Assembly: GCA_947624975.1 (NCBI GenBank)
Contig: CANQMP010000004.1
Span: forward strand, 1-64,000
Direction: 5' to 3'
From: Candidatus Gastranaerophilales bacterium
GTDB taxonomy: Bacteria > Cyanobacteriota > Vampirovibrionia > Gastranaerophilales > Gastranaerophilaceae
Length of the DNA stretch: 64,000 nt
Made by a program: the position numbers and the translations under genes
Notes under the pieces: generated by a model
What the model was told of the DNA's origin: nothing
The model's database searches: none
The model's input: the letters and a program-made list of their open reading frames with translations, nothing else
Shown here: positions 50,682 through 62,712 of the stretch, in pieces
Position numbering within the stretch: the first letter of the stretch is position 1
How the letters are laid out: every line of letters begins with the position of its first letter

Positions 50682-52007
50682 ATGAAAATATTTGCTTTAA
50701 AAAAAAGTAATAATTCCTTTTATACACAATATCAAATAACTATTTTTGATATCGTTATTGCTTATAAACAATTTTCAAAAAATTATAACACCTATTTTAA
50801 ACAGTTAAAAAAATATAAGGAAAAGAAAAAAGACAATATTACCAGAAGATTATTCTTAACATCCGGAAATTTAAGTTTAATTAATGCTCTTGCGATTATC
50901 AATCAAAAGGGTTTAAATAAAAATAGCGAAAACAGCATTTTAATTTGGTCGCATATATCAAATCAGGAATTTGAAGAAGTTTCTACCCAAATCAGCCATT
51001 TAACAAAAATAAAAAAACTTTTTAAATTTTGTAATTGTACACTTGATGATTTATTTAAGTATTTCATAAATAATCATTTAGCTGAATATGATGAGATATA
51101 TCTTATAAATTGCAGGTATATGTTTTTAATAAAAGATTTTCTTTTTCCGAACATAAAGTACTATATTTTTGATGAAGGAGTTTGTGTACTCTTTAAACAC
51201 AAAGGCATTGACTATTCTGATGTCAAAAAATGTTTTTTTATAAAATATTTAGATAAAATAGATTTTTTAGGAGCTGATAATGAATTAAATGAAAAAATTG
51301 AATTTTTAGATAAAAGAGAATTCTTAAAAGTTTCTCAAAGTGCAGCAGAACTTTATCCTATTGGTTTGAATTTAAATCCTGAGGACAAAAACATAATTTT
51401 ATGCGGAACTGGCGAAGGATGTGGCTTTTGGAGTTTTGATGAAATATTTAATTATCAAAATAAAATAATAGATGATTTAAATTTACATGGCTATAATGTA
51501 TTATTTAAACCTCATCCCAGAGATAAATTTAAGTATCAGGAAAAAGAAAATTTCAGAATTATAAATACAAAGCTACCTCTTGAGTGCTACGATTTAAAAG
51601 ATAAATGTCTTGCGGTTGTTTCATTATTTTCTTCTGTTTCTGCTCAAATGTATAGTTTTCATAATATTCCCGGATTTTGTGCACATGGTTTTATAAATGA
51701 TGTTAAAGATATAGGGATAAAAATTGTAAAATATTATTCACCATCTTATGAAATGCTTCTTTCAATTGATGTTAAAACAAAAACATTTAATGAAGTTCAG
51801 AATGAAATTTTGTCTTTATATACAAACTTTTTAAATAAAAAAACATTAATGTCCCAAAATAGTGCCTTAGCCAATAACTACGCGCAATTGCCCCCCCCCC
51901 CCCCATGCATCTCTGAATCTGAAATACGGGATATTATACATATCAATGAACAAAAAAATAAAAAAACATTAGTTTTAGGAAGACTAAATCTTTTTTTGGC
52001 GGACTAA
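50682..52007 (+). CDS. Putative sialyltransferase-like GT-B glycosyltransferase (GT52/polysialyltransferase-like)
   Basis: Motifs reminiscent of bacterial sialyltransferases: YYIFDEGVC (D/E-D/E-G), VLFKPHPRDKF (HP), SLFSSVSAQMYS (SS); C14 tract near 3' end encodes PPPPP. Confidence 0.65.
   Translation: MKIFALKKSNNSFYTQYQITIFDIVIAYKQFSKNYNTYFKQLKKYKEKKKDNITRRLFLTSGNLSLINALAIINQKGLNKNSENSILIWSHISNQEFEEVSTQISHLTKIKKLFKFCNCTLDDLFKYFINNHLAEYDEIYLINCRYMFLIKDFLFPNIKYYIFDEGVCVLFKHKGIDYSDVKKCFFIKYLDKIDFLGADNELNEKIEFLDKREFLKVSQSAAELYPIGLNLNPEDKNIILCGTGEGCGFWSFDEIFNYQNKIIDDLNLHGYNVLFKPHPRDKFKYQEKENFRIINTKLPLECYDLKDKCLAVVSLFSSVSAQMYSFHNIPGFCAHGFINDVKDIGIKIVKYYSPSYEMLLSIDVKTKTFNEVQNEILSLYTNFLNKKTLMSQNSALANNYAQLPPPPPCISESEIRDIIHINEQKNKKTLVLGRLNLFLAD
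51891..51904 (+). repeat. Poly-C tract T1 (C14) in sialyltransferase-like gene
   Basis: caattg-C14-atgcat read directly. Confidence 0.95.
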
Positions 52008-52022: not shown

Positions 52023-52781
52023 CTAATTTCTTAAATAATCGTGCCCGCCGTATTTCTTACTTGCTTTATCCCTTAATAAAATCCTGATATCATCTTTATA
52101 ACAGGGTATGTCCCAGCCTTCGGGGTAGCCGTATTTACAAGGTAAAATCCTATATTTTCGATTTATAATATATTTGTTTATTTGACTTTCGTCATGCCAA
52201 AGCGCTATTACATTATTCTCTAAATCATCATGGATATTTTTGCTCAATTCTTCGCATAACTTTAAATATTCTTCACTCAAACCCCCGTTAAATCCTCCCA
52301 TCACATAGCTAATACCCCCCCCCATGGGAATATATGCTTTTGACTTAGGATTTCTGTCATAAGTAAATTCTAAATTTGTTTTATCATAAAACCCCGGGTG
52401 TTGAGTTACCATAATTCCGCCATGGGCGTATTTATCAGGCAAAATATCTTCTTTAATTTCTTTTTCAAAAAGAATATTTGCATTACAAAAGAATAAATAA
52501 TCATACATTTTAAGCTCATCCTTTTGAGATAAAAACATATCAAAACGCATTAGGGTATCATAAGGCCAACCGAGTTTTTTTTGATAAATTTTTTTAACTT
52601 CTTTTTTGTTGTCGTAGTCAATGTGGTCACTATCTGTAAAAACAAAATAAGATTTTTTATGCTTTTTTAGAAAATATTTTTCACAAGATTCATAAAAATC
52701 TTTCCAAAAAACAGTATATTTTCCTGTACAAATGTAAAGAATTGCTATATTTAATTTTTTTGCCATTTTATTTTTCTCCAT
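52023..52781 (-). CDS. GT6 family glycosyltransferase (histo-blood-group ABO / alpha-1,3-Gal(NAc) transferase-like); likely start at MAKKLN (~52766)
   Basis: ILYICTGKYTVFWKDFYESCEKYFL, LGWPYDTLMRFDMF, FFCNANILF (bacterial NXN in place of DXD), AYIP...MGGFNGG, WHDESQINKYI, YGGHDYLR. Confidence 0.9.
   Translation of the reverse strand: MEKNKMAKKLNIAILYICTGKYTVFWKDFYESCEKYFLKKHKKSYFVFTDSDHIDYDNKKEVKKIYQKKLGWPYDTLMRFDMFLSQKDELKMYDYLFFCNANILFEKEIKEDILPDKYAHGGIMVTQHPGFYDKTNLEFTYDRNPKSKAYIPMGGGISYVMGGFNGGLSEEYLKLCEELSKNIHDDLENNVIALWHDESQINKYIINRKYRILPCKYGYPEGWDIPCYKDDIRILLRDKASKKYGGHDYLRN
52315..52323 (-). repeat. Poly-G (coding strand) tract T2 (G9) inside GT6 gene
   Basis: + strand aata-C9-atggga; coding ATG GGG GGG GGT ATT. 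Confidence 0.95.
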
Positions 52782-54577
52782 TCCAAAGGTATTATTGTGC
52801 TACTGTTTTCAACAAAAGGATCAGGAGCTAAAACAACCCCTGAAGTATCTTTTCTAAGCCATGCTCCCCACCAGCTAAAAGTTGAATTTGCAATAATTGC
52901 GTGTTTGCATTGGCTCATTAAATACATATCTTTCCAATCTTCTTTGTTATTATAGTTATGATTACCAATAAATTCTACAGGCGCATCTATTTTAAATGTA
53001 TTGAAAAAATCTTCGCAATCAGTTCCAAAAACAAAGAATTCAGGGTTTTTTATATTTTTAGATATAAAATCAAGAGCCTTTTTGTAATAATCCCTATTTA
53101 ATTCCCAGCCCAAATTTAAATAATCCCCCCTTCGTATATGAATAAATACAGGGTTTTCACAAGATTTTATCTTATTTAAAATATTCAAATTATATTCATC
53201 TTGAATATCAGGAAAAGTAAAATCTTTTCTGAGAATATCTTCAATTCCTTCTAAATATTTAGAGTTTTGAAAATAACCTTCATAATATATTTTTTTTGAG
53301 AGGAATAAATTTTCATCATATTCAAAAGGATTTTTTTCTTGAATAATCTTAGTTTCATATTTTGCCACTTTGAACATTTTTCTCAAGAAACCAAAAGGCA
53401 GAGTTTTTTTCATTTTTTTAGCCTTTTGAATATATTCCAAAGAAGCAAATTTTATATCAGGATTAAAAATTCCGAGTTCATATTTTCTAGCGTACGTTCC
53501 GTTAGGCAAAACTCCGTTATGATTAATCTCATTAATTTCATCAAACCAATTTTTATCATAAAGAACTTTACAGCGGCATACTTTCCTTAATTTCACTCCG
53601 AAAGCATATTGAAACATTTGATTTCCAAGACCGCCATTTAAATTAACTATCTTTTTAATATAGCAATGGAGGGGGGGCAGTTTATCACTATTTTCAACTA
53701 TTTCCACCTTTCTTTTAAATTTAATCCCAAATATACATAAAACATTATGCACTTTATTATTTGCTGAATATTGTTTTTTTAAAGAAAAGATTTTTTCGAT
53801 AAATTTATATTTTAGTTTAGTAGTATTATTCGAATTAATACTTTCTCTTATTTTATTTTTTATTTCCTCGTTGTCGGTTAAAAAATCAAGCATATTATCC
53901 TGAACAATCATACTTGCAGTATAAATTTCAGGTTTTAGAGATAAATTGTCCCCATGCAGGCGATATTTTAAAAGAATAGTTGGAAGATTATAAAAATTTA
54001 AGTATCTTATGGCTCTTGACCAGAGTTCATAATCCTCACAGCTTAATCCTTCTTTATATCTCAAATTATATTTCTTGAAATCCTCTTTTCTGAGCATAAC
54101 TGCAGGATGTGCCATAAAGCAACCTTTTAAGAAATCAAAATATTTGGGATTTTGTGGATAACGCCAAATTGCATTTTCTGTCCCGAACACCTCAACTGCA
54201 CCTCCGACTATTGAATACTCAGGATTATTCTCCAAAAACTCAACTTGGAGTCTAAACCTATCGGGAAGAGAAATATCATCGGAATCCATCCTTGCAATAT
54301 ATTCACCCTGAGCAATATCAAAACCGTAATTAAGTGTTTTTACTATACCTTGATGTTTTAACCTGATATAAGTAACCCTACCCTGAACATCCTTATATTT
54401 GTTTATAATTGTTTCAATATTATTTGTAGAACCGTCATCCAATATTAGAAATTCAAAATCTTTATAAGTTTGATTTAAAATACTTTCAATAGCTTCTTTA
54501 AGATATTGTTCATCAGGATTGTAACAAGGCATTATAACTGAAATTCTAGGCATACGATAACCAAAACCTTTCTTCAA
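52751..54577 (-). CDS. Fusion of GT2 glycosyltransferase and GT11 alpha-1,2-fucosyltransferase; likely start ATG at 54553 (MPRISVIMPCYN)
   Basis: GT2: ISVIMPCYNPDEQYLKEAIESILNQTYKDFEFLILDDGS, ARMDSDD; GT11: LNGGLGNQMFQYAFG, VFIHIRRGDYL, ANSTFSWWGAWL. Confidence 0.9.
   Translation of the reverse strand: MKKGFGYRMPRISVIMPCYNPDEQYLKEAIESILNQTYKDFEFLILDDGSTNNIETIINKYKDVQGRVTYIRLKHQGIVKTLNYGFDIAQGEYIARMDSDDISLPDRFRLQVEFLENNPEYSIVGGAVEVFGTENAIWRYPQNPKYFDFLKGCFMAHPAVMLRKEDFKKYNLRYKEGLSCEDYELWSRAIRYLNFYNLPTILLKYRLHGDNLSLKPEIYTASMIVQDNMLDFLTDNEEIKNKIRESINSNNTTKLKYKFIEKIFSLKKQYSANNKVHNVLCIFGIKFKRKVEIVENSDKLPPLHCYIKKIVNLNGGLGNQMFQYAFGVKLRKVCRCKVLYDKNWFDEINEINHNGVLPNGTYARKYELGIFNPDIKFASLEYIQKAKKMKKTLPFGFLRKMFKVAKYETKIIQEKNPFEYDENLFLSKKIYYEGYFQNSKYLEGIEDILRKDFTFPDIQDEYNLNILNKIKSCENPVFIHIRRGDYLNLGWELNRDYYKKALDFISKNIKNPEFFVFGTDCEDFFNTFKIDAPVEFIGNHNYNNKEDWKDMYLMSQCKHAIIANSTFSWWGAWLRKDTSGVVLAPDPFVENSSTIIPLEWRKIKWQKN
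53671..53677 (-). repeat. Poly-C (coding strand) tract T3 (C7) at the GT2/GT11 junction
   Basis: + strand atgga-G7-cag; coding CTG CCC CCC CTC CAT. Confidence 0.9.
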
Positions 54578-54580
54578 AAA

Positions 54581-55618
54581 CTAATCTGACGCAGTGCCCC
54601 CCATCGATGGTTTAAGGGGAGAAACGGGTTCTTTTTTAACGGGAATACCAAATACTTTGTATATTCTTTCCTCATTTTTTATTTTTTCACGATATAAAGT
54701 TATATTAAAAACAGATATTTTTTTATCTGATTTTGAAAATTTCACAAAAATTAGATAAGGTATTTTAAAAGCAAAGAAATTAGAATAAAAATCACTGTAT
54801 TTAATTTTTTTGATAATATCTTGCGCCATTTTTTCGTCATATCTTTTTTCAATATATGAAATGGCATCGTTAAGCACGCTTTTATATTGTCTTAACCTTT
54901 CTTTTTTGTTTTCTTTTTTAGTCATATTTGAAATCAAAGAATTTTTTCTTTTTCTATACATTACAACCGGATCTTCAATGCAAGAAATTTGAGGAAAATT
55001 AGAATATATTTTAATAAAAAAGCCTTCATCTTCATGAATTAAATTTTCATCAACAAATGTAATGTTATTAGATATAAGAAAATCTTTTTTAATCAATCTG
55101 CCCCATGCTGTATGATAATTCATATCATAGAATGAATCAAAATTCTCCGGAGTTATTTTTAATTTTGCTGCCATATAGGGCTGTTGAAAAAATTCATTTG
55201 ACTGTTTAACGGAAAGCTTAAATTCCTCATCTACCTCCTGCGTGAATGACCTTACTTTTCCTTGAGCAATATCGGTGTTATCCTGCAAGATTTTTCTATA
55301 CAATTTTTCTAATATATTTTCATCAAATAAATAGTCATCAGAATCTAAAAAGAAAATATACTCGCCTGAAGAAGATTTAAGTCCCGTATTTCTTGTTACG
55401 GCTAAACCTTTATTTGATTTATGGCAAATTAACTTTATACGGTTGTCTTTTTGCATAAAACTTTTTACGATGCTTATAGAATTGTCTTTTGAACAATCAT
55501 CAACGCAAATTATTTCAAGATTTTTATAGCTTTGCGAAACAACACTTTCAAGGCATTGCGCGAGATATTCTTCTACATTATATATTGGAATAATAACGGA
55601 AATTTTTGAAGTATTCAT
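54581..55618 (-). CDS. GT2 family glycosyltransferase
   Basis: KISVIIPIYNVEEYLAQCLESVVSQSYKNLEIICVDDCSKDNS, FFLDSDDYL. Confidence 0.9.
   Translation of the reverse strand: MNTSKISVIIPIYNVEEYLAQCLESVVSQSYKNLEIICVDDCSKDNSISIVKSFMQKDNRIKLICHKSNKGLAVTRNTGLKSSSGEYIFFLDSDDYLFDENILEKLYRKILQDNTDIAQGKVRSFTQEVDEEFKLSVKQSNEFFQQPYMAAKLKITPENFDSFYDMNYHTAWGRLIKKDFLISNNITFVDENLIHEDEGFFIKIYSNFPQISCIEDPVVMYRKRKNSLISNMTKKENKKERLRQYKSVLNDAISYIEKRYDEKMAQDIIKKIKYSDFYSNFFAFKIPYLIFVKFSKSDKKISVFNITLYREKIKNEERIYKVFGIPVKKEPVSPLKPSMGGTASD
54597..54602 (-). repeat. Short poly-G (coding strand) tract T4 (G6) at 3' end of GT2 gene
   Basis: + strand agtg-C6-atcgatgg, 14 nt upstream of the stop codon. Confidence 0.8.
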
Positions 55619-55750: not shown

Positions 55751-56638
55751 TTAGGCGACATTTTGCCCCCCCCCCATCAGGGCAAAGAATACAAAGGAGA
55801 GTAAAAAGCCGACTATTAAAACAAATTCGACAATCACCGCGATAAGAAGAATATTAAAGAGTTTTTTATATTTCTTGCTTCTTCTTTTAATTTTTTTGAA
55901 ATCAACAAAGCTTGAATCCAAAAAGGCATCTGTAAACTTTTTATTATTTAAATAAGTTTTAATGTGATGAGAAAGAATTAAAAATTTTATTAAATCAATA
56001 TTTTTATCATGAATATGAGTTCTGCAAGCTTCATCACCCAATTTGCGATAATGATATAGAACTTCATTTATTTTATAAAACTTGAATCCTTTTTCAAAAA
56101 ATGTAATCCATAATTCCCAGTCCTCACAACCGATATCATTAAGCCATTTTTTATATCCACCTATTTCTTCAAAATGTTTTTTTCTAAACATTGAGGAAGA
56201 TATTAAACAATTAAAATATAAGATTTTTTCTTCATCAAAATTACAATATATGTCATAATTTTCTGCTTGAAAATATTTAACATCACAATAGACAACAGAA
56301 TATTCCGGATTGTCATCAAGTGCGCGGACAAATTTTTCAATATAAGTTTCATCAAGGATATCATCGGCATCAAAAGGAAGAATGTACTCTCCTTTAGCCA
56401 TGTTAATTAATTTATTTCTTGCTGCACAAACTCCGATATTCTCTTTTTCATTAATATAAATAATTTCGGGATGGTCTTTTATTATTTCTTGAATAATATC
56501 CGCACTTTTATCTTCAGATGCATCGTTTAATACTAAAATCTCAATATCTTTATATGTTTGTTTAAAAACAGACTCAAGTGCTTCTTTAACATACTTCTCT
56601 TTATTATAGACAGGTATGACAACTGATACTTTAACCAT
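55751..56638 (-). CDS. GT2 family glycosyltransferase with C-terminal hydrophobic segments
   Basis: KVSVVIPVYNKEKYVKEALESVFKQTYKDIEILVLNDASED, LPFDADDILD; C-terminal TM-like region running into a G10 tract. Confidence 0.88.
   Translation of the reverse strand: MVKVSVVIPVYNKEKYVKEALESVFKQTYKDIEILVLNDASEDKSADIIQEIIKDHPEIIYINEKENIGVCAARNKLINMAKGEYILPFDADDILDETYIEKFVRALDDNPEYSVVYCDVKYFQAENYDIYCNFDEEKILYFNCLISSSMFRKKHFEEIGGYKKWLNDIGCEDWELWITFFEKGFKFYKINEVLYHYRKLGDEACRTHIHDKNIDLIKFLILSHHIKTYLNNKKFTDAFLDSSFVDFKKIKRRSKKYKKLFNILLIAVIVEFVLIVGFLLSFVFFALMGGGQNVA
55766..55775 (-). repeat. Poly-G (coding strand) tract T5 (G10) at 3' end of GT2 gene
   Basis: + strand ttttg-C10-atcaggg. Confidence 0.95.
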
Positions 56639-56856: not shown

Positions 56857-57798
56857 TTAATGTGTTAAATTGTTGCAAAAATCTTCATAAACCTTTTTTA
56901 TACCCTCTTTAAGAGAAGTTTTTGCCTTAAAACCTAAAGAATTTATTTTTGAAATATCCATAACTTTTCTCATAGTGCCATCCGGCTTTGTTTTATCAAA
57001 AACTATCTTACCTTTGTAACCGACTACTTCTTTTATTAAATCAGCGAGTTCTGATATTGAAATTTCTTCCCCTGTACCGATGTTAATTATTTCCCCTATA
57101 TCTTTTGCTGTTTTATTTTCCATAAGATATACAACTGCACGCGCTAAATCACCTGCGAACATAAATTCCCTTAAAGGTTTTCCGCTTCCCCAAACCGTAA
57201 CGGATTCCGCGTTTGAAACTTTTGCATCATGAAATCTTTTCAAAAGCATTGGAAGAACGTGGGCGTTTTGTTCATGATAATTATCATTAAAACCATACAA
57301 ATTGCAAGGCATCACAGATATAAAATCAGTGCCATATTCTCTATTATAAGCATCACACAGCTTTAATCCGCCAATTTTAGCCAATGCGTACATTTCATTT
57401 GTTTTTTCAAGTTTTGAAGAAAGTAAATATTCTTCCTTTAAAGGTTGCGGAGCGTTTTTGGGATATATACAACTGGAACCCAAAAATAACAGCTTTTTAA
57501 CATTATATTTATAGGAATTTTCAATAACATTAAGCTGAATTTTCATATTTTCTGTAAAAAATTCAACAGGATATGTATTATTAGCATATATTCCCCCTAC
57601 TTTAGCCGCAGCAAGAATAACATAATCGGGTTTATTTATTGAAAAAAATTCACTAACGGCAAAAGAGTCGGATAAATCAAGTTCTTTATGACCTTTAAGA
57701 ATTAAATTGTTATAACCTTTTTCTTTTAATTCTTTTGTTATCGCAGAACCGACAAGCCCCTTATATCCCGCAACAAATATTTTATCATGTTTTTTCAT
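56857..57798 (-). CDS. fcl: GDP-L-fucose synthase
   Basis: KIFVAGYKGLVGSAITKEL, KLLFLGSSCIYPKNAPQPLKEE, MYALAKIGGLKLC, GSGKPLREFMFAGDLARA. Confidence 0.95.
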   Translation of the reverse strand: MKKHDKIFVAGYKGLVGSAITKELKEKGYNNLILKGHKELDLSDSFAVSEFFSINKPDYVILAAAKVGGIYANNTYPVEFFTENMKIQLNVIENSYKYNVKKLLFLGSSCIYPKNAPQPLKEEYLLSSKLEKTNEMYALAKIGGLKLCDAYNREYGTDFISVMPCNLYGFNDNYHEQNAHVLPMLLKRFHDAKVSNAESVTVWGSGKPLREFMFAGDLARAVVYLMENKTAKDIGEIINIGTGEEISISELADLIKEVVGYKGKIVFDKTKPDGTMRKVMDISKINSLGFKAKTSLKEGIKKVYEDFCNNLTH

Positions 57799-58892
57799 TA
57801 TATCTCCAAAGAATTATATACTTTGTAACCGTTTTCTTTTAACATTCTTTCTTTTTCAGCCAATTCAAAGTCATTTTCAACCATTTCATCAATTAACATA
57901 TCAAGATTATACTTTGGTTTCCAATTAAGTTCGTTTCTTGCTTTAGAACTGTCCCCTAAAAGTAAATCAACTTCTGCGGGTCTAAAATAGCGTGGGTCAA
58001 CCTCAATAACAATTTTGCCCGTTTTTTTATCTATTCCTTTTTCATCAAGCCCTGAGCCTATAAATTCCAAATCCATATCCAGACGAGCAAAAACTTTTTT
58101 ACAAAAATCTCTTATTGATGTTGTAATACCCGTTGCTAAAACGTAATTATCCGGTTTTTCGGCTTGCAATATTAAATACATTCCTTCAACATAATCTTTA
58201 GCATGCCCCCAATCTCGTTTTGCATTAAGGTTGCCTAAATATAACTTATCCTGTAGTCCCATTTTTATTTTTGAAGCTGCCATTGTTATTTTTCGTGTAA
58301 CAAAAGTTTCACCTCGTCTTGGTGATTCGTGGTTGAATAATATTCCGTTTGAAGCAAATATATTAAAACTTTCACGGTAATTAACACAAATCCAATAAGC
58401 GTATAATTTTGCAGCAGCATAAGGAGAACGCGGATAAAAAGGTGTTGTTTCTTTTTGTATCGGTTCTTGTATAAGTCCATACAACTCTGATGTTGAAGCC
58501 TGATAAAACTTTGTTTTATTTTCAAGCTTGTTAAGCCTTATTGCCTCAAGCAGCCTTAATGTGCCTAAAGCATCAATATCTGCAGTATATTCAGCACAAT
58601 CCCAAGAAACTTTTACGTGTGATTGAGCTGCCAAATTGTAGATTTCATCGGGTTCAATATCGTGTATTAATTTTATCAGATTTGATGAATCGGATAAATC
58701 TCCGTAATGAAGAATAAAATTTGAGCTGTCGTGTATATCTTGATAAATATGGTCAATTCTTTGAGTATTAAAAGAACTCGCACGTCTTTTTATACCATGC
58801 ACTTCGTAACCTTTTGAAATTAATAATTCGGAAAGATAGCTTCCGTCTTGTCCTGTTACTCCCGTTATTAAAGCTTTTTTCATATCATTCAC
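57798..58892 (-). CDS. gmd: GDP-mannose 4,6-dehydratase
   Basis: [60 protein letters not shown]. Confidence 0.97.
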
Positions 58893-59053: not shown

Positions 59054-60010
59054 ATGAAAATCCGAGATAAAATAACAATTAAAATAGCTTATTGCGATTT
59101 TTGGGCAAACTGTAAATTTGACGAATTACATTTTACAAAAATTTTAAATGAAAAATATAATTTAGTGTACAGCGATGAACCTGATTACCTTTTTTGTTCA
59201 TGTTTTGGAAGAGAACATTTTAAATATAAAGACTGTATTAAAATATTTTATACTGGAGAAAATTGTGTATGTGATTTTAATCTTTACGATTACGGATTGT
59301 CATCTTGTTATATGACATTTACAGACAGGCATTTAAGATTTCCTCAATGGATACCTTATGATTTAAATCTAATAAGTTTAATGGAATATGGCAGAGAAAA
59401 AAATCCTGACTTAGATAAAAAGAAATTTTGTAATTTCATATATTCAAATGCGCATTGTGCGGAACAATTCCGAGAAGTGTTTTTTGAGAAATTATCAAAA
59501 TATAAAAAAGTTGATTCAGGCGGGAGTGTTCTAAATAATTTAGGATATAAAGTTCAAAATAAATTAGATTTTATTAAAGACTATAAATTTACCATTGCTA
59601 TTGAGAATTCTTTTGTTCAAGGTTACATAACAGAAAAACTAAGCGACCCTTTAATTGCAGGTTCTATGCCTTTATATTACGGCGACCCAATGGTTGGCGA
59701 AGAATTTAATACAAATTCTTTTGTGAATTTAAGAGATTTTAAGTCAATTAACGAAGCTATTGAATATATTGTTGAGCTTGATAAAAACGATAAATTATAT
59801 TTAGAAAAATTACAAAGTCCTTGTTTTATTCATGCTAATGTTGAGAATTATTACAGAAATAAAACTATTGATTTTTTCAGTAATATTTTTGACCGCGAAA
59901 AGGAAGAAGCGAAAAGAGTAACCCGATTTGGCTGGACTAAATATTATGTAGATGCCATCGCCCCCCCCCCCCCATCGCCTTGGTTTAAAAAAATATTAAA
60001 AAAATATTAA
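59054..60010 (+). CDS. GT10 family alpha-1,3/4-fucosyltransferase
   Basis: YTGENCVCDFNLYDYGLSS, YKFTIAIENSFVQGYITEKLSDPLIAGSMPLYYGDP (FucT C-terminal signature). Confidence 0.93.
   Translation: MKIRDKITIKIAYCDFWANCKFDELHFTKILNEKYNLVYSDEPDYLFCSCFGREHFKYKDCIKIFYTGENCVCDFNLYDYGLSSCYMTFTDRHLRFPQWIPYDLNLISLMEYGREKNPDLDKKKFCNFIYSNAHCAEQFREVFFEKLSKYKKVDSGGSVLNNLGYKVQNKLDFIKDYKFTIAIENSFVQGYITEKLSDPLIAGSMPLYYGDPMVGEEFNTNSFVNLRDFKSINEAIEYIVELDKNDKLYLEKLQSPCFIHANVENYYRNKTIDFFSNIFDREKEEAKRVTRFGWTKYYVDAIAPPPPSPWFKKILKKY
59961..59973 (+). repeat. Poly-C tract T6 (C13) near 3' end of GT10 gene
   Basis: gccatcg-C13-atcgcct; encodes APPPPSPWFKK. Confidence 0.95.
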
Positions 60011-61572: not shown

Positions 61573-62712
61573 TTATACATCATAGTTTTTATTAAAGTCT
61601 TTTTGGGGTGGAGTGAAGTCCACCCTACTCCTACCGTTATATATGTTCAAATAATACCTTATTATTCTATTATCATTTATAAAAGAAATATAATACATTA
61701 ATCTTAAATGAGAAAAACTCCTATAATTAGTTTTTTTCTCTAATTCAAAAAAGTTAGTATTAAAAAACTCATCTATTTTAATACTTTTACTCTTATATTT
61801 GTCTTTCATTTTTTCATAAACAAGTTTTTTCATATCTTTTAAGTGTATCCAGAAAAAACCTATAGGAAAGATTTTTTGCATTAATTTATTATCATTTTGA
61901 AATCTTTCAATTATTCTGTTATTTTCGTTATCATAAAAAGGAATATAATAAGTATCAGATGACACGGGAAAACAAACAGTATCAAAAGTCCCGTTAAATG
62001 GCGACAATAGATCAGGTGTTTCAAAACTACCCAAAGGTATTTTACCTTCAAATAAATTTATTCCGGAAAAAGAAGTTATTATTTTATCATTTTGGATTTT
62101 TTTCTTTATGTAAGAAATCAAATTCTTAATAAAAAATTTTGGGATTAAAAAATGACAACTAAAAGAATTTAGATAATTTGAATGTTTTAATATTTTTTTA
62201 TATAACTTTTGATAATATTTGAACGCAAGCTTCTCTTTTAATAAAATTTTAACCTTATCTTCTCTTTTATATAAATCCAATATTTCTTTAAATTTATCAC
62301 TGAAATAAATCTGATCATCATCAATTTTTATTGCATATTTATATTTTGCTTTAGATAGCGCAAAATTATAATAGTTACTTAATAGATGAATTGAATTTTT
62401 AGGAAGATTTAAAGCATAATCATATTCTTCTTCAGATAAATTATGAGAATATACTTTTGGCTCATAAAAATAAACTCTAATTTTATCAGGATACTGTTTT
62501 TGTTTTTCAATAATTATTTTTTCGGTATCATCAAAACTTTCCTGATAAACAATAATTAATTCATCAAGAGCATTTATACAGGAATCAATACAATCCGAAA
62601 TAAAATCTGCACCGTTTTTTGCTCTTAATAACCCGCTTATACCAATAGGACGTTCTTTTGTAAAGTCTGAAATATTCACGGCAAAAGAGCTGCCCCCCCC
62701 CCCCCCCTGCAT
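61573..62712 (-). CDS. Glycosyltransferase (GT2-like); probable native start upstream at ~62761, out of register in this sequence
   Basis: GISGLLRAKNGADFISDCIDSCINALDELIIVYQESFDDTEKII, KYAIKIDDDQIYF. Confidence 0.7.
   Translation of the reverse strand: MQGGGGGSSFAVNISDFTKERPIGISGLLRAKNGADFISDCIDSCINALDELIIVYQESFDDTEKIIIEKQKQYPDKIRVYFYEPKVYSHNLSEEEYDYALNLPKNSIHLLSNYYNFALSKAKYKYAIKIDDDQIYFSDKFKEILDLYKREDKVKILLKEKLAFKYYQKLYKKILKHSNYLNSFSCHFLIPKFFIKNLISYIKKKIQNDKIITSFSGINLFEGKIPLGSFETPDLLSPFNGTFDTVCFPVSSDTYYIPFYDNENNRIIERFQNDNKLMQKIFPIGFFWIHLKDMKKLVYEKMKDKYKSKSIKIDEFFNTNFFELEKKTNYRSFSHLRLMYYISFINDNRIIRYYLNIYNGRSRVDFTPPQKDFNKNYDV
61605..61630. repeat. Palindromic repeat R6, inside the 3' end of the 61573-62712 CDS
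   Basis: GGGGTGGAGTGAAGTCCACCCTACTC; encodes the SRVDFTPPQK tail on the - strand. Confidence 0.7.
62693..62707 (-). repeat. Poly-G (coding strand) tract T7 (G15) at 5' end of GT gene
   Basis: + strand agctg-C15-tgcattt. Confidence 0.95.

Follow-up and report, generated by a model that had tools for sequence, protein, structure and literature searches.

Does a run of seven cytosines at the boundary between two glycosyltransferase domains act as a switch that joins two enzymes into one polypeptide or lets them go apart, or is it a run that arose by chance and stayed? The question is raised by a reading frame on contig C4 of a Candidatus Gastranaerophilales genome (1.91 Mb in 59 contigs), lying within a 64,000-nucleotide stretch of that contig that was analysed as a whole and is called the window here. 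In this frame a GT2 domain is followed by a GT11 domain with the run, C7, between them (Table 1). Our best reading is that C7 is a slow or latent switch between a fused and a split form, situated in a disordered linker, to which we give a chance just short of even; that C7 is a fixed chance run is nearly as likely. In the named collection, the window's relatives are MAGs labelled 'Candidatus Gastranaerophilales' that bear 'Lapin' sample names. The rpoC gene of the window is split in two (569 + 1288 aa), and a split rpoC is a cyanobacterial trait.

Results

Pfam assigned residues 13–149 of the fusion reading frame to PF00535 (GT2; E 1.2e-34, 120.2 bits against a curated cut-off of 23.3) and residues 426–585 to PF01531 (GT11; E 2.6e-22, 79.8 bits against a cut-off of 23.9). 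The GT11 domain is of the fucosyltransferase type, and the GT11 part of an 18-row alignment (A1) contains HIRRGDYL, which fits HxRRGDY, the motif of GT11 (PF01531). Translation likely begins at the ATG at 54553 (residue 9, compare the paralogue MPKISVV...), which would make the protein about 600 aa long. Relatives of the GT2 half have their C-terminus at the position of the junction and are mostly stand-alone proteins, so that the natural end of GT2 lies where a first-pass annotation of this DNA had put it; what that annotation had said of the sequence itself, namely the reading frame, the position of C7 and the junction, was borne out throughout. The reading frame depends on the length of C7, being in frame at C7 with the product altered at C6 and C8. 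With tract lengths set in silico, C4, C7 and C10 gave fused products of 607, 608 and 609 aa, C5 and C8 gave 306 and 307 aa with the C-terminus ..PPLLY, and C6 and C9 gave 309 and 310 aa with the C-terminus ..SIAILKR, in agreement with the stops calculated earlier for C6 and C8. An Rfam scan of the window matched a tRNA alone, and scans of the window for promoters and terminators gave matches no commoner than in shuffled sequence.

Table 1. Features of the GT2–GT11 junction and C tracts of the surrounding glycan genes (window coordinates).
Feature	Position	Strand	Remarks
C14 tract	51891..51904	+	near 3' end of polysialyltransferase-like gene 50682–52007
C9 tract (C on +)	52315..52323	-	inside GT6 gene 52023–52781
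GT2–GT11 fusion ORF, 608 aa	52751..54577	-	Pfam; AlphaFold2 model with two folded domains
C7 run (G7 on +)	53671..53677	-	GT2/GT11 junction, codons 301–303; then T-CC-AT
TTG	53695..53697	-	aligned with GT11 start ATG of L167; joins GT11 frame at C5/C8/C11
AGGTG, Shine-Dalgarno-like	53705..53709	-	7 nt upstream of TTG; kept in L167
C6 run (C on +)	54597..54602	-	near 3' end of upstream GT2 gene 54581–55618
C10 tract (C on +)	55766..55775	-	near 3' end of GT2 gene 55751–56638
C13 tract	59961..59973	+	near 3' end of GT10 fucosyltransferase gene 59054–60010
C15 tract (C on +)	62693..62707	-	right after start codon of GT2-like gene 61573–62712 (MQGGGGG..)

An AlphaFold2 model of the fusion was built from alignment A1 (mean pLDDT 82.8, pTM 0.56). 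Its longest stretch with pLDDT below 50 covers residues 292–306, the residues encoded by the tract included, and the first strand of GT11 is formed by residues 308–312. To judge by the model, C7 probably encodes part of a disordered linker between GT2 and GT11, and the tract residues seem to be needed by neither domain.

In one relative, locus L167, the two enzymes are encoded by separate genes whose GT2 stop and GT11 start overlap as TGATG, with AGGTG upstream. A DNA alignment places an AGGTG and a TTG of the window at positions equivalent to the AGGTG and ATG of L167, and the N-terminus of the L167 GT11, MKIKFCLPAFFWYIKKIVN, resembles the C8 reading of the window from the TTG, (M)KIVINCPPLHCYIKKIVN. 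From the TTG the frame leads into GT11 at C5, C8 and C11 (314–316 aa) and meets a stop after 13–17 codons at C4, C6, C7, C9, C10 and C12. Features of translational coupling are thus present in L167, while in the window the TTG site is out of frame at C7. Since the TTG is in frame with GT11 at C8, slippage by +1 should yield two separate enzymes, and GT11 would probably still be made from the TTG at C8; TTG is a weak start codon. The earlier claim that slippage silences the fucosyltransferase holds for C6 and C9, where GT11 is lost, but probably not for C5, C8 and C11, where TTG and AGGTG are available.

A scan of the 608-aa protein against genome contigs gave four loci. L166 has a fused reading frame of 587 aa (59% identical); in L167 GT2 is 69% and GT11 82% identical; L168, in an Alphaproteobacteria MAG, has a 427-aa reading frame (45% identical) made of the C-terminal part of GT2 and GT11; and L169 has the GT2 region alone (31%). 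No C/G run of at least 6 was found at the junction of L166, L167 or L168. The gene in L168 (6001–7284), which is a GT2–GT11 gene minus the N-terminal part of GT2, comes from a roe deer reticulum MAG, and its presence there suggests that the gene has moved between phyla or that the contig was misbinned.

A search with the GT11 half covered 383 genomes of the family and gave matches in 65 of them; 30 loci were fetched (L170–L199), the window's own among them. A similar GT2 was joined to GT11 or stood just before it in 7 of these 30. It was fused in the window and in L173, which lies on the same contig as L166, and separate genes, which the first-pass annotation had proposed to seek in relatives, were found in L171 (the same as L167), L172, L174, L178 and L182. 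Among these seven loci a junction run of at least 6 is present in the window only, while L188 and L192 have a run of at least 6 near the GT11 start without such a GT2. Six further places with long frames were inspected (L200–L205): L201 and L204 are more distant GT2–GT11 fusions without any run of at least 7 in the locus, L203 is a DUF1796–GT11 and L205 a GT11–GT6 fusion, L200 has a GT11 match alone, and L202 resembles L200 by look. The L205 fusion (190–1782, genome G259) is 530 aa long, and its N-terminal end carries a run of 9. Two orthologues of the pair have a tract elsewhere: L206 (2417, genome G034) has G12 inside GT2 with the gene out of frame, and L207 (1864, genome G243) has a run of 9 just ahead of the GT2 start codon.

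A first GT11 tree left out 21 of 37 loci that went unrecognised by a motif filter; the second was made from 16 loci taken by choice, of which L204 and L175 were dropped and 14 used. These 14 rows require four transitions between the fused and the unfused state, at least three of which are forced by well-supported branches. The fused and split relatives without a tract, taken with these changes, indicate that fusion and separation have alternated without any homopolymer. This tells against the control of coupling that had been ascribed to the tract at first, for the fusion is found tract-free in L166 and L168 and in the distant L201 and L204.

The length of C7 was compared with chance. A Markov estimate per 64 kb predicts about one C/G run of at least 7 (0.60 + 0.45), and the whole genome contains 95 such runs. 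Counted by exact length there are 59 runs of 6, 8 of 7, 8 of 8 and 5 of 9, then 12 of 10, 15 of 11, 18 of 12 and 15 of 13, and finally 7 of 14, 3 of 15, 2 of 16, 1 of 19 and 1 of 26. The drop from 6 to 7 is like that of a chance tail, with no surplus of runs of exactly 7, and the lengths 10–13 form a separate peak. By the criterion for contingency loci, C7 is neither above background length nor in the hypermutable range, and since it lies inside the background tail its length alone is not significant. What makes it notable is its position at a domain junction within a cluster of five longer tracts (9–15) in 11 kb. All five fall within 51.9–62.7 kb of the window, and the 51.9 kb before them contain no run of at least 7.

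Could a run of this length slip? Table 1 of PMC4235727 puts >7G in the hypermutable class and 6G–8G in the mutable one, with a rate of 1e-7 to 1e-5 per division, and PMC4965091 counts C. jejuni tracts from seven up. C7 would accordingly fall in the slowly mutating class (6–8 G, PMC4235727), unlike the neighbouring tracts of 9–15. No length variants of C7 were seen in the material, which is one genome; the junction pattern had 0 matches in viral_contigs and, among 213 loci, none apart from copies of the window's own genome. The sequence C7-T-CC may represent a run that an interruption has stabilised. Non-pilin tracts tend to follow G (32 of the genome's own 73 runs of at least 9 with both flanks, the remainder being mostly prepilin leaders), and C7-T-CC is as long as C10, which makes a derivation of C7 from an interrupted C10 appealing but unproven. 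In non-pilin C tracts of the genome itself and of L161–L164, G (often TG) nearly always stands before the run and A or G after it; the flanks of relatives' tracts were taken from 16 chosen loci, many from genome G001, which contains N runs. The run just upstream of the pair is 6 long in the window as against G11 in L166 and G12 in L167, there at a contig edge, so that lengths at this site vary widely.

The fusion belongs to a glycan cluster that starts at 50.7 kb and comprises, by Pfam, polysialyltransferase-like, GT6, GT2–GT11, more GT2 and GT10 fucosyltransferase genes, together with what are presumably, by the look of their sequence, GDP-fucose synthesis genes (56857–57798 and 57798–58892). 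The internal tract of GT6 is conserved: it is in frame with 9 in the window and G11 in L166 (8201), and out of frame with G10 in L167 (2308), where the gene is broken into reading frames of 156 and 110 aa. In GT10 the tract measures 13 in both the window and L167, and 11 in L166. Downstream of the window the assembly of contig C4 has a polysaccharide deacetylase broken at C11 (68597) and a second polysialyltransferase-like gene broken at G12 (70784). From such patterns the surroundings of C7 look as if they undergo phase variation, and C7 is the shortest tract of this cluster. Other tracts were considered as fusion switches and rejected: of six with long frames beside them that were inspected by eye, five appear to cut a single gene and the sixth has its long frame wholly downstream.

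Discussion

A slow or latent switch at C7 would work as follows. The GT2 and GT11 halves, which are also found as adjacent genes with features of translational coupling, are here connected by a probably disordered linker that C7 encodes in part. At C7 (or C4, C10) a single polypeptide would be made. At C8, GT2 would stop soon past the run and ribosomes could initiate GT11 at the conserved TTG, so that two enzymes would result; at C6 GT2 alone would be made, since neither start leads into the GT11 frame. With a run as short as C7, switching would be rare (of the mutable and not the hypermutable kind), and the fused form would be effectively fixed in most cells. We infer that C7 slips in nature, that the TTG serves as a start of GT11, and that fusion versus separation matters for the glycan. 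If C7 slips, the switch would be between fused and separated rather than between on and off, and the structure of the glycan could change without the loss of an activity.

It may quite possibly be, however, that the protein is an established two-domain enzyme, always fused, and that the C7 in its linker arose by chance or was left over and has no switching role. Runs of exactly 7 occur at background frequency (8, against 59 of length 6), the four tract-free fusions named above do without it, no other pair examined has a run at the junction, and the form C7-T-CC would slip less. Chance accounts less easily for a C7 placed precisely between the two domains, where 28 kb of contig C4 hold 11 other runs of at least 9, or for the fact that its length is what holds both frames together; moreover, the closest relative is split, and its start site is kept in the window, out of frame.

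A more ambitious proposal, which we regard as unlikely, is a three-state coupling switch in which C(3n+1) would give the fused protein, C(3n+2) separate enzymes through re-initiation at a conserved start and C(3n) GT2 alone, all within a family-wide poly-C/G contingency system by which gut non-photosynthetic cyanobacteria would switch their prepilins and those surface glycans that are host-like (fucosylated, sialylated, GT6-type). The hypermutable on/off phase variation advanced in the first-pass annotation, with frequent slippage freeing GT2 and silencing the fucosyltransferase, would suit the tracts of 9–15 in neighbouring glycan genes, some of them out of frame; it is improbable for C7, which is the shortest run of its cluster, would probably still yield GT11 at C8 via the TTG, and showed no variants in the one genome. 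Ribosomal or transcriptional slippage on C7, by which one DNA sequence would give both fused and separate products with CCC-CCC-C as a possible slippery site, is the least probable of all, the site not being conserved in relatives. Some precedent for it comes from H. pylori, where futC expression is possibly influenced by a translational frameshift according to PMC2752801.

The slow or latent fused/split switch can be set beside known systems. The C. jejuni type IIG restriction-modification genes cj0031/cj0032 have an internal G9 whose length changes split the gene into two frames (PMC4889913). C7 is likewise a G/C homopolymer at which a length change separates one gene into two frames; both parts of cj0031/cj0032 belong to one enzyme, whereas here two complete enzyme families with stand-alone relatives are involved, and the second part, GT11, may own a start. 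In H. pylori the fucosyltransferases futA, futB and futC (the last an alpha-1,2 enzyme) are controlled by poly-C through slipped-strand mispairing (PMC2752801). C7 too is a poly-C tract in a fucosyltransferase gene, but the H. pylori tracts lie within a single gene and turn it on or off, while C7 lies where two enzymes meet. Overlapping, translationally coupled gene pairs form a class among the GeneTack clusters (PMC3711429), which L167 resembles in its frame transition at a stop/start overlap; the window differs from it, its two domains being fused and the corresponding start not in frame. Since a splitting tract in cj0031/cj0032 and poly-C control in H. pylori are known, C7 is of a known kind, and the twist of fused versus split is what is novel.

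Poly-C/G tracts are widespread beyond this locus. Runs of at least 9 occur in 32 of 33 genomes of the genus, with up to 176 per genome. For runs of at least 10, a phylum sample of 386 genomes gave up to 176 within the family, many members having few or none, 0–5 in the genomes of the same order (3) and the same class (10) that lie outside the family, and a maximum of 38 elsewhere in the phylum. Loss of mismatch repair was rejected as the cause, judged on MutL, which is present in the genome itself (E 1.1e-158) and above the cut-off in 32 of the 33 genus genomes. In the literature consulted, no description of a poly-C/G tract system in gut Gastranaerophilales was found; a paper that came up for phase variation in Melainabacteria is on flagellins. 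What is new on a wider scale is how abundant these tracts are in gut Gastranaerophilales, 35 prepilin leaders included, and such a tract system would let surface variation in a little-studied lineage be tested from ordinary metagenome reads.

The 35 prepilin-like genes of the genome carry G8–G19 in the leader peptide, in the arrangement MKKITISALNPS-G(n)-FSPSKGF..AFTLAEVLI; an example starts at 15932 of L093 (contig C4:79932). The 5' end is intact in 29 of these genes; the frame is kept in 6 of the 29 and lost in the other 23, and on these frames the prepilin repertoire looks phase-variable. The same arrangement of a tract in a prepilin leader is seen in the relative G001 (L162–L164). Contigs C5, C8, C10, C38 and C39 end in or beside tracts situated within or close to a prepilin leader, and the assembly thus breaks at these repeats.
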